Origin: a virus
Reading direction: 5' to 3' (one strand)
Length of the DNA: 22,457 nt
IMG/VR virus record: IMGVR_UViG_3300024518_004094
Coordinates: 1 to 22,457 of that record
The notes under the pieces are model-generated. The model was not told the DNA's origin. It saw only the letters and a program-made list of their open reading frames with translations, and ran no database searches. Every line of letters starts with the position of its first letter. Positions within the stretch are counted from its first letter, which is position 1. Of the stretch, positions 5,608 through 16,307 are shown in pieces. The translations under genes and the position numbers were made by a program.

Positions 5608-6335
5608 GTGGAACGTGTATTATGGCTGAAATGAGAGAGGACCGAGCACCGGTGAAATGGAATAAAAAATTTAATTATGTCCGGGGTCCGAGAACCACGG
5701 TCCAAGGCTCACGGACCTACGAGGTTGGTGGCCGAAATCTCCCGAGTGTAACGACTATCCTTGCAAAGACCAAGGATCAGGAATATATCGAGCGATGGAA
5801 AAAAAGAGTCGGATATGAAAAAGCAGACTACATCAAGAATTATAGTAGCAAGCGTGGCACTGCCATGCATAAGTTCATTGAGAAACACCTCGAAGGTACT
5901 GGGTATGATGACCTTACTGAGATTGGACGGGAGGCGAAGCCCATGGCACAAAAGATTATTGAGGTGGGTCTTGCACCGATGGAAGAAATTTGGGGCTCGG
6001 AGGTAACACTTTACTACCCGGACCTCTATGCAGGGTCCACGGACCTAGTGGGTATGTACAATGGGAGACAAACTCTCATTGATTTCAAACAGTCAAATCG
6101 CCCAAAGCAGCGTGAGTGGGTAACAGATTACTTTTTGCAAGTAGCAGCATACTGCATGGCTCATGACTATCTTTATGATACACGAATTGAGCAAGCAATC
6201 ATAATGATATGTACCCCAGATTGCTATTACCAAGAATATAAGGTAGAAGGATTAAACCTAAGACAACATAAATACGATTTTATGGAAAGAATGGATAAAT
6301 ATTATGACCAATCACATCAACAACCCGTTCTATAA
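5604..6335 (+). CDS. PD-(D/E)XK exonuclease, RecB/Cas4/MGME1-like (243 aa)
   Basis: A RecB-family single-strand or DNA-end exonuclease. The motifs appear in order: PSVTTIL (47-53), KRGTAMHKFIEKH (H89), a conserved glutamate near E132, AGSTDLVG (D147), the DxK signature LIDFKQS (D160, K162), and QVAAYCMAH (Q179), the usual helix after the active site. The length is typical of phage MGME1-like enzymes. It probably takes part in genome recombination, end processing or degradation of host DNA. Two seven-base-period GGWCC arrays lie inside the gene (5685-5717 and 6020-6045), the second across the D147 motif. It overlaps the 56-aa gene by 4 bases and the next gene by 32. Confidence 0.85.
   Translation: MSGTCIMAEMREDRAPVKWNKKFNYVRGPRTTVQGSRTYEVGGRNLPSVTTILAKTKDQEYIERWKKRVGYEKADYIKNYSSKRGTAMHKFIEKHLEGTGYDDLTEIGREAKPMAQKIIEVGLAPMEEIWGSEVTLYYPDLYAGSTDLVGMYNGRQTLIDFKQSNRPKQREWVTDYFLQVAAYCMAHDYLYDTRIEQAIIMICTPDCYYQEYKVEGLNLRQHKYDFMERMDKYYDQSHQQPVL
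5685..5717 (+). repeat. Seven-base-period GGWCC array, five units, inside the exonuclease gene
   Basis: Five-base cores start at 5685 (GGTCC), 5692 (GAACC), 5699 (GGTCC), 5706 (GGCTC) and 5713 (GGACC), each exactly 7 bases after the last. Three match GGWCC perfectly and two differ by one or two bases. A shorter pair lies just upstream (GGACC 5639, GCACC 5646). Confidence 0.75.
6020..6045 (+). repeat. Seven-base-register GGWCC array in exonuclease active-site region
   Basis: GGACC at 6020, GGTCC at 6034 and GGACC at 6041 lie at offsets 0, 14 and 21, so all are in one seven-base register. The 6027 position (TATGC) is degenerate. The array spans codons 139-148, including D147. Confidence 0.6.
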
Positions 6336-9012: not shown

Positions 9013-9378
9013 ATGACACCAGAAAGAAAATTATGGCATGAGCTTAAAAGAAATACACCTCAAATTACATGGACAAGGCTTGAAAATTTTGCTGGAGTTG
9101 GTACTCCTGATCTATTGGGGTATGCTAATTCTGGGCACTTTTTTACTGTTGAGTTAAAGGTCACAAAAGCCAATAAGATTCGATTCTCTCCCCACCAAAT
9201 ATCATTTCATATCACACATCCCAAGAATACATTTATCTTAGTAAAGGCCCTTGGTCCTTGTACCATGAAACTTTTTCCAGGATCCCTGATCCAGGAACTA
9301 GTGAAGGAAGGCTATGCTTGTGAGTCCGGGGTCCAGGGTCCCTGGTCCACGGTGCTTGAGCCTCTGCTTGCTTGTTGA
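9013..9378 (+). CDS. VRR-NUC/Hjc-like PD-(D/E)XK nuclease (121 aa)
   Basis: A compact restriction-fold nuclease. The signature runs GVGTPDLLGY (D33) then FFTVELKV (E47-x-K49) and a conserved Q62 in PHQISFH. This matches VRR-NUC and archaeal Hjc-type Holliday-junction resolvases, which cut branched DNA; phages use them to resolve replication intermediates before packaging. The core ends near residue 100. The last ~25 residues (SGVQGPWSTVLEP...) are encoded by seven-base-period GGTCC arrays and look like repeat-derived extension. Adjacent packaging genes fit a debranching role. Confidence 0.8.
   Translation: MTPERKLWHELKRNTPQITWTRLENFAGVGTPDLLGYANSGHFFTVELKVTKANKIRFSPHQISFHITHPKNTFILVKALGPCTMKLFPGSLIQELVKEGYACESGVQGPWSTVLEPLLAC
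9246..9355 (+). repeat. Three seven-base-period GGWCC-type arrays at the nuclease 3' end
   Basis: First array: cores at 9246 (GGCCC), 9253 (GGTCC), 9260 (GTACC). Second: 9281 (GATCC), 9288 (GATCC), 9295 (GAACT). Third: 9323 (AGTCC), 9330, 9337 and 9344 (all GGTCC), 9351 (GGTGC). Within each array the spacing is exactly 7 bases. Confidence 0.75.
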
Positions 9379-9442
9379 TTATGTGTTGGACCTGCTTGTT
9401 GATTGCTTGTGTGTATGTGCTTGCTTGTTTTTTGTTTTTTTC
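9366..9442. repeat. CTTG-rich simple repeats left of the Gp88 gene
   Basis: Repeated TGCTTG/GCTTGCTTGTT words, two copies of TGCTTGTTGAT and a GCTTGCTTGTTTTTT copy at 9419-9433. The 15-base copy recurs at 10141-10155 on the other side of the GC-rich gene. The stretch lies between two convergent genes and appears noncoding. Confidence 0.55.
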
Positions 9443-9492: not shown

Positions 9493-10101
9493 TTAATGTT
9501 TTTTGTATTGAATTTCTTTGACATCTTTGTTCCAACAGGCGCGACAGCTGCCGCACTTCATACCTTGTTCAGGGGCCGGGCAGACATAGACGCCAGCTCG
9601 GGGCTTCGTCACGACGGTCGACCAATGAGTCCAGGCCTGACCCGGGACTGTATCATTCTTTGCATTCGATAGTCTAATAATTAAATTTGGTGGAATTGTG
9701 GAGCCCGGAAGCGGCAGGTATTGTCTCTCCTGTGTTGGCAGCCAGTGACTGGTCTCCGGCGTGCTTGCGCATACTTCGAATATTTTCCGGAGATGGTCCG
9801 CGCTCTGCAGGTCCCCTGAGTCGTGCCAGCGGAAGTGCTTCTTGCCCTTGATCAGTGTTGCCATGGCCTTGGTCCAGGATCCATGGTTCAAGCTCTTCAG
9901 GCGACGCTCCAGCGCTGCCTTCTGTATTGGCATTATATATCGATTCTTTAAAGCATAGCATCCATGGCACGGGGTGCCCGGAACCAGGGCCAGCTTAGCT
10001 CCTGTCTGGCAGGCTGCGGCCGGAATACTATAGGCGCCTTCAGGCATCTTGCCTGGTGCGCTCAGTCCTCCGGTGATCTTGCTTGCTTCTTTCTTTAACA
10101 T
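9493..10101 (-). CDS. Gp88-family phage protein (202 aa)
   Basis: A member of the mycobacteriophage gene-product-88-like family (PF17338-like), function unknown. Recognisable blocks are SKITGGLSAPGKMP (7-20), SIPAAACQTG (25-34), PGTPCHGCYALKNRY (41-55), HFRWHDSGDLQSADHL (89-104) and LPTQERQYLP. The C-terminal cysteine cluster is YVCPAPEQGMKCGSCRACW (172-190), with C31, C45 and C48 further upstream. The cysteines suggest a metal or iron-sulfur site. The gene is clearly richer in G and C than its surroundings and is flanked by CTTG-type repeats, suggesting transfer. Its ATG lies only 6 bases past the -10 box, so the mRNA may be leaderless. Arrays at 9864-9889 and 9965-9990 lie within it. Confidence 0.75.
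   Translation of the reverse strand: MLKKEASKITGGLSAPGKMPEGAYSIPAAACQTGAKLALVPGTPCHGCYALKNRYIMPIQKAALERRLKSLNHGSWTKAMATLIKGKKHFRWHDSGDLQSADHLRKIFEVCASTPETSHWLPTQERQYLPLPGSTIPPNLIIRLSNAKNDTVPGQAWTHWSTVVTKPRAGVYVCPAPEQGMKCGSCRACWNKDVKEIQYKKH
9864..9889 (+). repeat. Seven-base-period array inside the Gp88 gene
   Basis: Cores at 9864 (TGGCC), 9871 (GGTCC), 9878 (GATCC) and 9885 (GGTTC), each 7 bases apart. Confidence 0.55.
9965..9990 (+). repeat. Seven-base-period array inside the Gp88 gene, second
   Basis: Cores at 9965 (GGCAC), 9972 (GGTGC), 9979 (GGAAC) and 9986 (GGGCC), each 7 bases apart. More degenerate than the other arrays, but keeping the GG...C form. Confidence 0.45.
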
Positions 10102-10106
10102 ATCAT

Positions 10107-10135
10107 TTAATATCCTATTTGTGCTTGTTTGTCAA
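10107..10135 (-). promoter_or_regulatory. Sigma-70-type promoter for the Gp88 gene, TTGACA-17-TATTAA
   Basis: On the minus strand TTGACA is at 10135-10130 and TATTAA at 10112-10107 with a 17-base spacer. The start codon at 10101 lies 6 bases beyond the -10 box, so transcription would begin at or about the ATG. Confidence 0.65.
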
Positions 10136-10136
10136 T

Positions 10137-10172
10137 TCTTGCTTGCTTGTTTTTTTTTGCTTGTTTTTTTTT
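10137..10172. repeat. CTTG/T-tract repeats right of the Gp88 gene
   Basis: Contains CTTGCTTGCTTG followed by T9, then GCTTG and T9-10. It shares GCTTGCTTGTTTTTT (10141-10155) with 9419-9433. Confidence 0.55.
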
Positions 10173-10634: not shown

Positions 10635-10663
10635 ACCTTATCATTTAAAATCCTACGAGTCAA
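10635..10663 (-). promoter_or_regulatory. Possible promoter for the 32-aa/100-aa gene pair
   Basis: On the minus strand TTGACT (10663-10658) and TAAGGT (10640-10635) are 17 bases apart; the -10 box is weak. The region holds a 17-base block (10639-10655) matching 10101-10117 at 16 of 17 positions, upstream of the Gp88 gene. Confidence 0.4.
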
Positions 10664-10705
10664 GCCTGTGTGTGCTTGTTCGTCTGGACATAATCTTTAT
10701 TTTTT

Positions 10706-10762
10706 TTGACCCAAGATCCGCTGGCTAATATTCATCCCCAGGGCAGATCTCGGCTCAAGTTT
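10706..10762 (+). repeat. First converging pair of TTGASCC..AGATC elements
   Basis: Copy A, TTGACCCAAGATCC at 10706-10719 (plus), faces copy B, GATCTCGGCTCAAGTTT at 10746-10762 (element on minus). Copy B matches copy D (10907-10923) at 16 of 17 bases. Confidence 0.65.
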
Positions 10763-10767
10763 GGCCA

Positions 10768-10812
10768 AGCTAAAAGCAAAGGTTCCGCATGGATTTTCAG
10801 TTGCATTTAGCT
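10768..10812. repeat. 12-base inverted repeat, 21-base loop
   Basis: AGCTAAAAGCAA (10768-10779) pairs with TTGCATTTAGCT (10801-10812) at 11 of 12 positions. It lies between the two TTGASCC pairs. Confidence 0.6.
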
Positions 10813-10825
10813 AGCAAACCATTTT

Positions 10826-10922
10826 AACTTGACCCCAGATCCAAGCCCCCAATTACAATCGGTCTAGTACAAATCTTTGCTAGACACATTAGAGCAATCC
10901 GCCTTGGATCTGGGCTCAAGTT
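10826..10922. ncRNA. Long stem-loop, candidate structured RNA element
   Basis: The arms AACTTGACCCCAGATCCAAG (10826-10845) and its near-complement at 10903-10922 pair at 19 of 20 positions. Inside is a nearly concentric 6-bp stem, GTCTAG (10862-10867) with CTAGAC (10880-10885). The result is a long hairpin with one large internal loop. The arms are copies C and D of the TTGASCC element. An RNA product is inferred from structure only; a DNA protein-binding site is the alternative. Confidence 0.45.
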
Positions 10923-11010
10923 TAAAACCAGCCGAGCCAAAAACCTAAACTAATATAGGCAATACTCATTACTATTAAAAAGATGTTAAATTGCATAATT
11001 TCTTTCTAGC

Positions 11011-11066
11011 TCAAGCGATTAAGACGCAATTAATTGAGTTTAACCGCTTGAACTTTTTATTCTTTT
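11011..11066 (+). terminator. Hairpin followed by T-rich tract, candidate terminator
   Basis: TCAAGCGATTAA (11011-11022) pairs with TTAACCGCTTGA (11040-11051) at 11 of 12 positions, with a nested CAATTAATTG palindrome at 11027-11036. A T-rich run (11054-11066) follows on the plus strand only. It would end a plus-strand transcript from the structured region upstream. Confidence 0.45.
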
Positions 11067-11112
11067 ATCATCCAACGCTAGTAGCATTTTATCTTAAAGA
11101 ATTACTATCATA

Positions 11113-11149
11113 TATAATCCTATTGACTATTGATGTCAATAGGTATAAA
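11113..11149 (+). promoter_or_regulatory. Promoter with 9-bp palindromic operator before the 11182 operon
   Basis: CCTATTGAC (11119-11127) and GTCAATAGG (11135-11143) form a perfect inverted repeat with a 7-base centre. It overlaps TTGACT (11123-11128), which with TATAAA (11144-11149) gives a short-spaced (15) promoter. It also directly follows TATAAT (11113-11118), a second possible -10 box. Either way the palindrome covers the start region, as a repressor site would. Confidence 0.55.
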
Positions 11150-11181
11150 ACTTTATTTTTAACTTAAATCGAAAGGACAAA

Positions 11182-12168: not shown

Positions 12169-12195
12169 TAAGGGATAATATGTCATTATCCCTTA
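12169..12195 (+). promoter_or_regulatory. Perfect 11-bp hairpin with a start codon in its loop
   Basis: TAAGGGATAAT (12169-12179) and ATTATCCCTTA (12185-12195) are exact inverted repeats around a 5-base loop ATGTC that contains the ATG at 12180. The ribosome site AAGGGA lies in the 5' arm. A second in-frame ATG (12195) starts on the last base of the stem. Confidence 0.75.
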
Positions 12196-12395
12196 TGTTT
12201 AATTTAATCGAAAGTAATAAAAAGTTCAAAATCAAATACACTAAAAGTGATGGCGAAACAGTTAGACGTTTCGGCATTATTACTGATAGCTGTCGTGGAT
12301 TTGGGAATAGAGCGAAAGACAGCAAACCTTTTTTGCATTATTGGGATTTAGATAAAAAAGGATATAGATACGCAACCAATTGGGAGATACTATGA
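12180..12395 (+). CDS. Small beta-rich hypothetical protein (71 aa)
   Basis: Strands alternate through KFKIKYTKSDGETVRRFGII, GFGNRAKDSKPFLHYWDLDK and KGYRYATNWEIL, giving a small beta-barrel-like look. The IKYTKSDGE...HYWDLDKKGYR pattern is loosely like half of a WYL or SH3-type domain, but I would not assign it. The first five codons lie within the perfect hairpin at 12169-12195; the alternative start at ATG 12195 would give MFNLIESNKKF. The stop overlaps the next gene by 4 bases. Confidence 0.55.
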   Translation: MSLSLMFNLIESNKKFKIKYTKSDGETVRRFGIITDSCRGFGNRAKDSKPFLHYWDLDKKGYRYATNWEIL

Positions 12396-14730: not shown

Positions 14731-16307
14731 TGAGAAAAGAACTTTTTAACGAAATATTTGGTCTAATGAAAAAATTAGACATTCCTCTTAACCTTGGAAC
14801 TCGAACTAATGTGAAAAGATTACCTGCTGTGCAAGATATGACTAATCAGGTGCTTAGTGAAGGACGTTTACAAAATTACGTTGATGAAAAAGGTGTTGAT
14901 TTGGTATTAAAACTTTTTGCACGAGATGGTGCTTATATTCCTCATCTTAATGATCTAGAAGGAAAACAGTTTTTATCAAATTTGAAAACTTTTGATAAAA
15001 TCAAAAACCCACCAACGCCTAAAAGTGCAGAAGTTCATTTATTTTCTAAATTACCAGGTGATCCAATCACTCCAGAAGCATTCACTGGTCAAAAAGCCCG
15101 TGACCAAGCAATGTTTTCATCTGCCATTTTAAAACAAAGCATGAATTTATCCAAAATTGACCAAGATCTAGCAAAAAAATTAAATTTGGATATGTCCAAG
15201 ATTTCTGATTTTGAGAAATTACAAGTATGGAAAGATAAACATGGAGTACCGGATTTTACTAAAGACGAAGGTGTTGGATCCTTATTTAAAACAATAAGTA
15301 AGGACCCTGTTGCCGATGTTGGAAAGATAATGGATAATCTTGAAAAAGAAGGTAAATCCCTTGTTGACCAAATGACAAAAATTACTGATCTGGCTTATAA
15401 AATGTCTCCTGAGGGTATAGCGGCTGCAGAAGCGGCAAGGAAATCTTTACTTAAAAGAATGAGCGAAGGTAAAGGTTTTGCCGGTGGTGTTTTTGGTAAA
15501 AGAAATGATGGATATTTTAGGGCCTTGGTCCGTCCATTTTTGCTCAAAGAACATGAAGCTGGAAGAATTAAACTGGCGGACAATACTTTAGGTTCTCTTA
15601 AAAATAGCAACGATATTAAATCCGGTGGAGGAAACGATTTTATGTATCCGGATCCGGTTAGAATTTTCAGACACCATTATGGCGATGATGCCTTTGACTT
15701 GATCCCTGATCAAGAGGTGTTTGGTATGGGCCCTTCTGGTTATGGCCCAACACGAGATAGAATTAACGAAGTGATGATTAAAGCCGGGATTAAACCGACC
15801 ACGGTCCAAGGACCAGGAACCCCGGGCGGTTATCTAACCAAAGGGGAATACCAAGCCAAGCTCGATGAGCTTGATGAGGTGAGAGGTTATATCAAAAATA
15901 AAGAAGGCCGATTTGGAGATATGTCGGAAACAGAAATTGCAGAAGAATTTGCTGATCTTGATCAAAAAGGAGCTTCTATCAAAAGGGCGATGGAAATAGA
16001 TCATCCCAAACCAAAAAAAGACCGACCCAGTATTCGTATCATAAAAAATTTCGAAAGAGATCTGACAGATATTGAATTAGCGCAAGAAGGTTATAACCTT
16101 CAAGAAATTCAAATTCTCATGAGAGCTCAACAAGTGATGAAAAAGGAAGGACAGAATCCTGATGACGCACTTGCCTGGGTCCGTGGTCAAATGGCGGATG
16201 ATGCTGGCGTCGAGTTTGAAGAATTCATGCCCGACTTTGACTGGGGCGACTTCCCAGGAAAATATTCCACAGGCGGTGGCGTAGGCTCCATGTTTAGGAG
16301 AGTTTGA
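14730..16307 (+). CDS. Large phage protein, probable virion-associated (525 aa)
   Basis: A soluble, lysine-rich protein between terL and portal, of a type I recognise from uncultured marine phages but with no assigned function. Recognisable blocks include RIIKNFERDLTDIELAQEGY, MRAQQVMKKEGQNPDDALAW and VRGQMADDAG near the C-terminus. It ends in KYSTGGGVGSMFRRV, a glycine-rich tail resembling the SEGGRVGMKFGGE module inside the following protein. Position suggests an internal or head-assembly protein. The bases at 15796-15821 form a seven-base-period array that encodes the TTVQGPGTPGG linker. It starts on the last base of the terL stop. Confidence 0.65.
   Translation: MRKELFNEIFGLMKKLDIPLNLGTRTNVKRLPAVQDMTNQVLSEGRLQNYVDEKGVDLVLKLFARDGAYIPHLNDLEGKQFLSNLKTFDKIKNPPTPKSAEVHLFSKLPGDPITPEAFTGQKARDQAMFSSAILKQSMNLSKIDQDLAKKLNLDMSKISDFEKLQVWKDKHGVPDFTKDEGVGSLFKTISKDPVADVGKIMDNLEKEGKSLVDQMTKITDLAYKMSPEGIAAAEAARKSLLKRMSEGKGFAGGVFGKRNDGYFRALVRPFLLKEHEAGRIKLADNTLGSLKNSNDIKSGGGNDFMYPDPVRIFRHHYGDDAFDLIPDQEVFGMGPSGYGPTRDRINEVMIKAGIKPTTVQGPGTPGGYLTKGEYQAKLDELDEVRGYIKNKEGRFGDMSETEIAEEFADLDQKGASIKRAMEIDHPKPKKDRPSIRIIKNFERDLTDIELAQEGYNLQEIQILMRAQQVMKKEGQNPDDALAWVRGQMADDAGVEFEEFMPDFDWGDFPGKYSTGGGVGSMFRRV
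15796..15821 (+). repeat. Seven-base-period GGWCC array in the 525-aa gene
   Basis: Cores at 15796 (CGACC), 15803 (GGTCC), 15810 (GGACC) and 15817 (GAACC), 7 bases apart. It encodes TTVQG, the same residues that the array in the exonuclease encodes at its positions 31-35. Confidence 0.65.

Follow-up and report, generated by a model that had tools for sequence, protein, structure and literature searches.

A gene-free block near position 10,700 of IMG/VR virus record IMGVR_UViG_3300024518_004094 is very probably a noncoding RNA array of the HTVC023P/027P-type pelagiphages, read from the minus strand and built of exchangeable hairpin units. The stretch that we analysed, here called the window, has 22,457 bp (positions 1 to 22,457 of the record) and belongs to a phage of this type, since its TerL and that of HTVC027P, a cultured Pelagibacter phage, are 70% identical, the figure for HTVC023P being 62%. 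Our confidence concerns the array itself, and not the further step in which its hairpins would act as decoys. No description of the locus was found in the open-licence literature, and the hairpin array appears to be an undescribed RNA family. Loci used for comparison carry L-numbers as labels, L244 and L532 being HTVC027P.

The block had been singled out in a first-pass annotation as a candidate phage RNA with four inverted repeats, all of which are present. The 20-base repeat (10826-10845 with 10903-10922) pairs at 19 of 20 positions, the sole mismatch being a G·G that is near-invariant in relatives, and the 12-base repeat (10768-10779 with 10801-10812) pairs at 11 of 12. The hairpin made by 11011-11022 and 11040-11051 belongs to a longer pair of 15 nucleotides (nt), and the imperfect pair at 10706-10762 repeats, in degenerate form, the element of 10826-10922. 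On either strand the region 10700-11066 folds better than all of its dinucleotide shuffles, with -129 kcal/mol and z -7.8 for the minus strand, and -96 kcal/mol and z -4.75 for the plus strand. Compensatory changes were found in the stems of relatives, and a conserved structured phage RNA is strongly supported. The annotation had also taken the block to be one RNA of about 350 bases; the structured RNA holds, but the single fixed unit does not, since the locus is an array of separate exchangeable hairpins. A tRNA search of the window gave none, and an Rfam search of it (all 4227 families, gathering score) gave no match, as had been supposed from the lack of any tRNA or riboswitch pattern; nor did the block match cultured phages with blastn.

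The architecture of the array emerged from homologues of p324, the 324-amino-acid protein that starts the rightward operon. Upstream of these genes, which were fetched by protein similarity only, there is a recurrent hairpin with the plus-strand ends TTGACC...GGCTCAAG, on the minus strand CUUGAG-CC...GG-GUCAAG. In this unit, A, the base is near-fixed (CUUGAG...GGUCAAG) and includes the G·G mismatch, the stem co-varies strongly and the tip is variable. With TTGA/TCAA ends and a complementary stem as its sole requirements, a finder returned 526 matches over both strands, more than 90% of them with the G·G mismatch (C·C on the other strand) beside the base, against 7 matches in shuffled sequence (one strand), none of which had the mismatch. 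A second unit, B (GGUCAAG...CUUGRCC), comes after A in 186 of 225 A units and has the GGUCAAG strand in common with it; its downstream UUGRCC core is met at 7% of random places. From one to five A units were detected per array, usually 30-120 nt apart, and at all loci but one they share a single orientation. The units are 45-140 nt long and without genes, and the gaps between them are generally 2-120 nt. There is also a second type of array, with the base CUGAUC/GAUCAG, which is present in HTVC027P with the same arrangement, the base change there being concerted across A-left, A-right/B-left and B-right. Strict patterns matched at least 120 stretches for each base type.

The array of the window consists of the minus-strand units A1, B1 and A2 and covers 10706-10920. 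A1 (10828..10920; CUUGAG-stem-variable tip-stem-GGUCAAG with the G·G mismatch) scores 59.6 bits with the covariance model R1, and A2 (10706..10759), in which the stem is degenerate and contains G·U pairs, scores 43.7 bits (E 1e-11); both copies are among the 39 rows on which R1 was trained. Between them B1 (10763..10834; GGUCAAG-variable-CUUGGCC) has its GGUCAAG in common with A1, and B units 93-96% identical to it are found in L028 and L142.

In the A stem 98.4% of the cells are paired and 9 of the 16 pairs have changes on both sides, with a covariation score of 0.451 against 0.115 in shuffled controls and no more than 0.079 in slid ones. When the minus strand is read, stem positions 11-16 have 92 G·U against 5 A·C, and in an independent alternative-base set (among the matches listed) positions 13-17 have 62 G·U against 2 A·C. 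Both the compensatory base changes and the one-strand tolerance of G·U that a structured RNA should have are thus found. As the minus-strand stems tolerate G·U but almost never A·C, this strand is the folded one. The covariance model agrees: it matched on the gp88 strand in 32 of 48 loci fetched only through their gp88 neighbour, the match on that strand always scored above the other where both strands matched, and one more locus had only a weak match on the opposite strand. Most genes downstream of the arrays share the strand of the hairpins. Together with the strand of a known structured RNA, RF02976, which is treated below, this indicates that, as far as sequence evidence goes, the folded strand is the minus strand of the window.

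The plus-strand RNA with a terminator at its end, which the first-pass annotation favoured, does not survive this. The minus strand is favoured alike by the G·U wobbles, by the model scores and by the direction of the genes, and the terminator scan makes no call at 11011-11051. On the structured minus strand the supposed T-rich tract is A-rich, the complement of it being a 5' RNA motif kept in several relatives. On the scan, the folding of the minus strand, the G·U bias and the strand of the model hits, we reject the reading as a plus-strand RNA with an intrinsic terminator.

Hundreds of relatives carry an array of this kind in the equivalent position, between the terS-side and the terL-side operons. 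Among the matches listed for pattern-found arrays, the marker genes terL, p324, gp88 and terS are placed and directed as expected in 282 of 284 cases for the A type and in 319 of 322 for the alternative type, and on long contigs the array is at one place only. Within 1 kilobase (kb) of 74 p324 loci a full unit of the A or alternative type is present at 47 and a weak unit at 5. A search of 297 Pelagibacterales genomes gave one match only, in a single-cell genome, on a 62-kb contig with the TerL of this phage. The near-absence from these genomes led us to reject an element derived from the host, SAR11, and judged by this distribution the hairpin units are phage-specific. A single A unit is also present in L190, an 88-kb phage of a different type without this TerL, where it lies in the gap between two convergent genes.

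Units move between phages one at a time. L119 and the window have exactly A1 in common (100 nt, 100% identical), though their p324 proteins are only 65% identical, and the identical 100 nt are also found in L121. Promoter-region matches aside, L028 and the window have only B1 in common (93%), and L084 and the window only A2 (95%). There are 51 locus pairs with a near-identical unit and a comparable protein, and the most divergent of them (p324 42-60% identical) have one unit in common; overall, single units are 90-100% identical between phages in which p324 is 42-65% identical. The ends of short common segments lie within 10 nt of the conserved bases in 53% of cases against 39% for random positions, a modest difference in a comparison that includes flanking coding matches. 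The tips are also found on different mountings: A, B, alternative-base and unrelated stems can all carry one and the same tip, L135 (A) and L055 (alternative base) are identical over 59 nt, and the UAAACAAUU tip class is on several kinds of stem. It is the identity of single units across divergent phages, and of tips across different stems, that leads us to regard the locus as one of exchangeable hairpin cassettes in noncoding RNA.

The tips form about 370 clusters in 560 units, a count in which some overlaps are included and the alternative type enters with both its strands, and neighbouring tips differ. Some tip classes recur with invariant cores. A second recurrent class, of about 115 nt and with the conserved core CUAUARYAYAGGUCGCGA, was seen in L056, L059, L061, L070, L073, L140, L165, L204 and L237, and had no Rfam match. 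The possibility that tips are spacers or antisense sequences against phage genes was examined by comparing them with about 1.5 Mb of mostly pelagiphage-related non-array DNA, and was rejected: the matches were nearly all to other hairpin loci and to low-complexity CAAGC repeats, the exception being false elements inside the p324 gene.

How the array works is a more speculative question. Transcription would start on the minus strand from a divergent promoter-like site near 11110-11140, and each hairpin would then fold independently, its tip being displayed as an RNA domain of its own. The tips are swapped unit by unit between phages, probably by phage recombination enzymes that use the short conserved bases; near the array locus there is a gene for an exonuclease of PHROG 298. 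The string of hairpins may act in trans as a multivalent ligand or decoy for factors of the host or of rival phages. We prefer this reading, but tentatively, a role in cis being about as likely; trans action would explain both the uniform mounting of the tips and their rapid turnover. A fuller version, in which the array is adaptive, with standardised bases and a shared pool of tips that are taken singly from other phages and used in trans against host defences or competing phages, is conceivable but rather doubtful.

The alternative in cis, which we hold to be possible to much the same degree as trans action, is that the hairpins serve to insulate, process or protect a small transcript of the divergent promoter in its 3' part, or else make up the leader of the leftward operon, and that the tips drift because only the stems matter. 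This agrees with the arrays being upstream of same-strand genes and often after small open reading frames (ORFs) and before another promoter-like site, and also with the A unit of L190 filling the gap between two convergent genes. Free drift, however, fails to explain why near-identical tips move between stems and phages, or why conserved tip classes recur, and there is no U-tract after A2 in the window.

Several observations weigh against the array as such. Neither base type is present within 1 kb of 22 of the 74 p324 loci, although at least four of these (L019, L074, L078 and L080) bear the same tip family on other stems, and the text of the HTVC027P transcriptome paper does not mention the array region. 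Once the stems are trimmed off, the tips have only a slight folding advantage over shuffles (mean z -0.41), which leaves the tip structure uncertain except in the few recurrent classes. Energy models give the A base 0.88 and the B base 0.10, so that the conservation of the B base is unexplained; switching between A and B through their common strand was considered, but with energies favouring A it is at most a possibility. The finder-derived A sets were picked partly for pairing, and for this reason two further checks were made: where elements were chosen by nothing but the base, 46 of 59 had at least 9 of the 12 inner positions paired, and in 118 alternative-base elements among the matches listed (exact pattern, inner stem free) positions 13-16 are paired in 467 of 472 cells, the inner positions outside the search pattern being about 97-99% paired, with several pair types per position. 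Finally, G·T is tolerated in folded single-stranded DNA too, and the G·U argument alone is compatible with such DNA.

This last point also speaks for an element that acts as DNA, folded as a single strand for recombination, replication or packaging like attC or pac/cos sites, and the fixed position between the terS-side and terL-side operons and the exchange of units would fit it. We nevertheless think it unlikely, because RF02976, a known structured RNA, occurs in the same region and on the same strand, because the array has a promoter-like site and a 5' hairpin motif ahead of it, and because there are no genes in its units of 45-140 nt. Functionless mobile palindromic repeats of the BIME or MITE kind are modular, vary in copy number and have single units common to different phages as here, but are very improbable given one place per genome, one orientation, conserved synteny and compensatory changes in the stems.

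An RNA array can also be set against systems already described. Flavobacterium-1 (Rfam RF02976, a small RNA) lies in the p324-gp88 intergenic region, on the hairpin strand, in HTVC027P and in the relatives L534, L537 and L538, with 90-103 bits (cut-off 58.9); in HTVC027P it is at L244 5496-5616, which is MN698241.1 17753-17873. The likeness ends with the region and the strand: the window and the A and B units have no match to it, and in other phages it is beside an exonuclease gene. A scan of 30 array loci in two batches against Rfam gave only RF02976 in L244, weak matches elsewhere being at chance level. Separately, RF02976 was noted in 10 of 39 records of pelagiphage type, lying either next to the exonuclease gene or in the region of the array. 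GOLLD and ROOL are large ornate noncoding RNAs encoded by phages, with many stems and no known function (PMC12286853). The array is likewise a phage noncoding RNA with many stems and a role not known, but it has no Rfam match, the window has no tRNA, and its units are separate and exchangeable.

In their mode of evolution the units resemble integron cassette arrays. These also consist of exchangeable units, and their attC sites are imperfect hairpins with conserved ends and a variable terminal structure, but the pelagiphage units carry no gene cassette and the evidence points to RNA; no IntI tyrosine recombinase was found in the eight window proteins scanned or the neighbours examined, a search that was not exhaustive. 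BIME/REP elements are alternating palindromic modules with common motifs in intergenic DNA, as the array is, and differ from it in that the array is at one locus per genome, in one orientation at all but one locus, with co-varying stems and exchanged tips. The RNA repeats of type III toxin-antitoxin systems, a string of folded RNA units, are a lead for the decoy idea, but the repeats of the array are non-identical and no toxin gene was recognised beside them. With tips as diverse as those counted above, the near-identical direct repeats of CRISPR and of type III antitoxins are not what the array has. By the features tested it is outside the integron, BIME, CRISPR and type III antitoxin classes, and outside every Rfam family tested.

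Few entities in the ocean are as abundant as SAR11 and its phages. In the array these phages have a structured-RNA family that Rfam lacks, in which covariation is very strong, the genomic address is fixed and hairpins are swapped singly; we know of no other system that evolves by passing individual RNA hairpins from phage to phage. Should the tips be ligands or decoys, they would be a natural library of RNA effectors. As cultured HTVC027P carries the alternative-base form and has published infection transcriptomes, expression can be tested at once.

Upstream of the array units, the candidate promoter of the minus-strand transcript is TTGACA-17-TATATA at 11111..11139 (minus strand), a consensus match that is conserved in 21 aligned relatives, and the block around it (11107-11168) is kept in most relatives. 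The palindrome that holds this site may also supply the plus-strand promoter of the 324-amino-acid gene. It is followed on the minus strand by a 5' hairpin motif (AUUCUUUAAGAUA-hairpin-GAUGAUAAAAGAAU; 11059..11102), carried by 10 loci, in 6 of them directly after the promoter, with stems that differ, and by the 5' proximal hairpin (11008..11054), an inverted repeat that is similar in L033 and replaced by a different one in HTVC027P. Beyond A2 a weak promoter-like site (TTGACT...; 10635..10663, minus strand) may serve the minus-strand operon. This leftward operon comprises a small ORF, a 100-amino-acid gene, a gp88-like gene (Pfam GP88) and terS, and the rightward one continues from p324 to terL and portal. 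Family searches gave no match for p324, and its AlphaFold model is of low confidence (pLDDT 64).

The recurrent palindromes CTTTAGAATGATTCTAAAG and GGGCGGGCCCACCC are found directly 3' of the array in L004, L027, L030, L031 and others, and a separate hairpin of the TTTGCCAAGTG/CACTTGGCAAA type lies near the p324 start in some relatives (L007 3934-3969, L020 3837-3874 and others). The 71-amino-acid protein adjoining p324 (12180-12392) has a borderline match to WYL_2, an Sm-like SH3 fold. Low-complexity TGCTTG/CAAGCNN repeats occur beside promoter-like sites at 9365-9440 and 10077-10172 and in many relatives. GGTCC-rich repeats are present within ORFs at 5679-5707, 9324-9352, 9865-9893 and 15783-15825, apparently in frame (e.g. 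GPRTTVQGSRTY and GVQGPWSTVLEP), and by analogy they recall the Rickettsia palindromic elements that are inserted in proteins.
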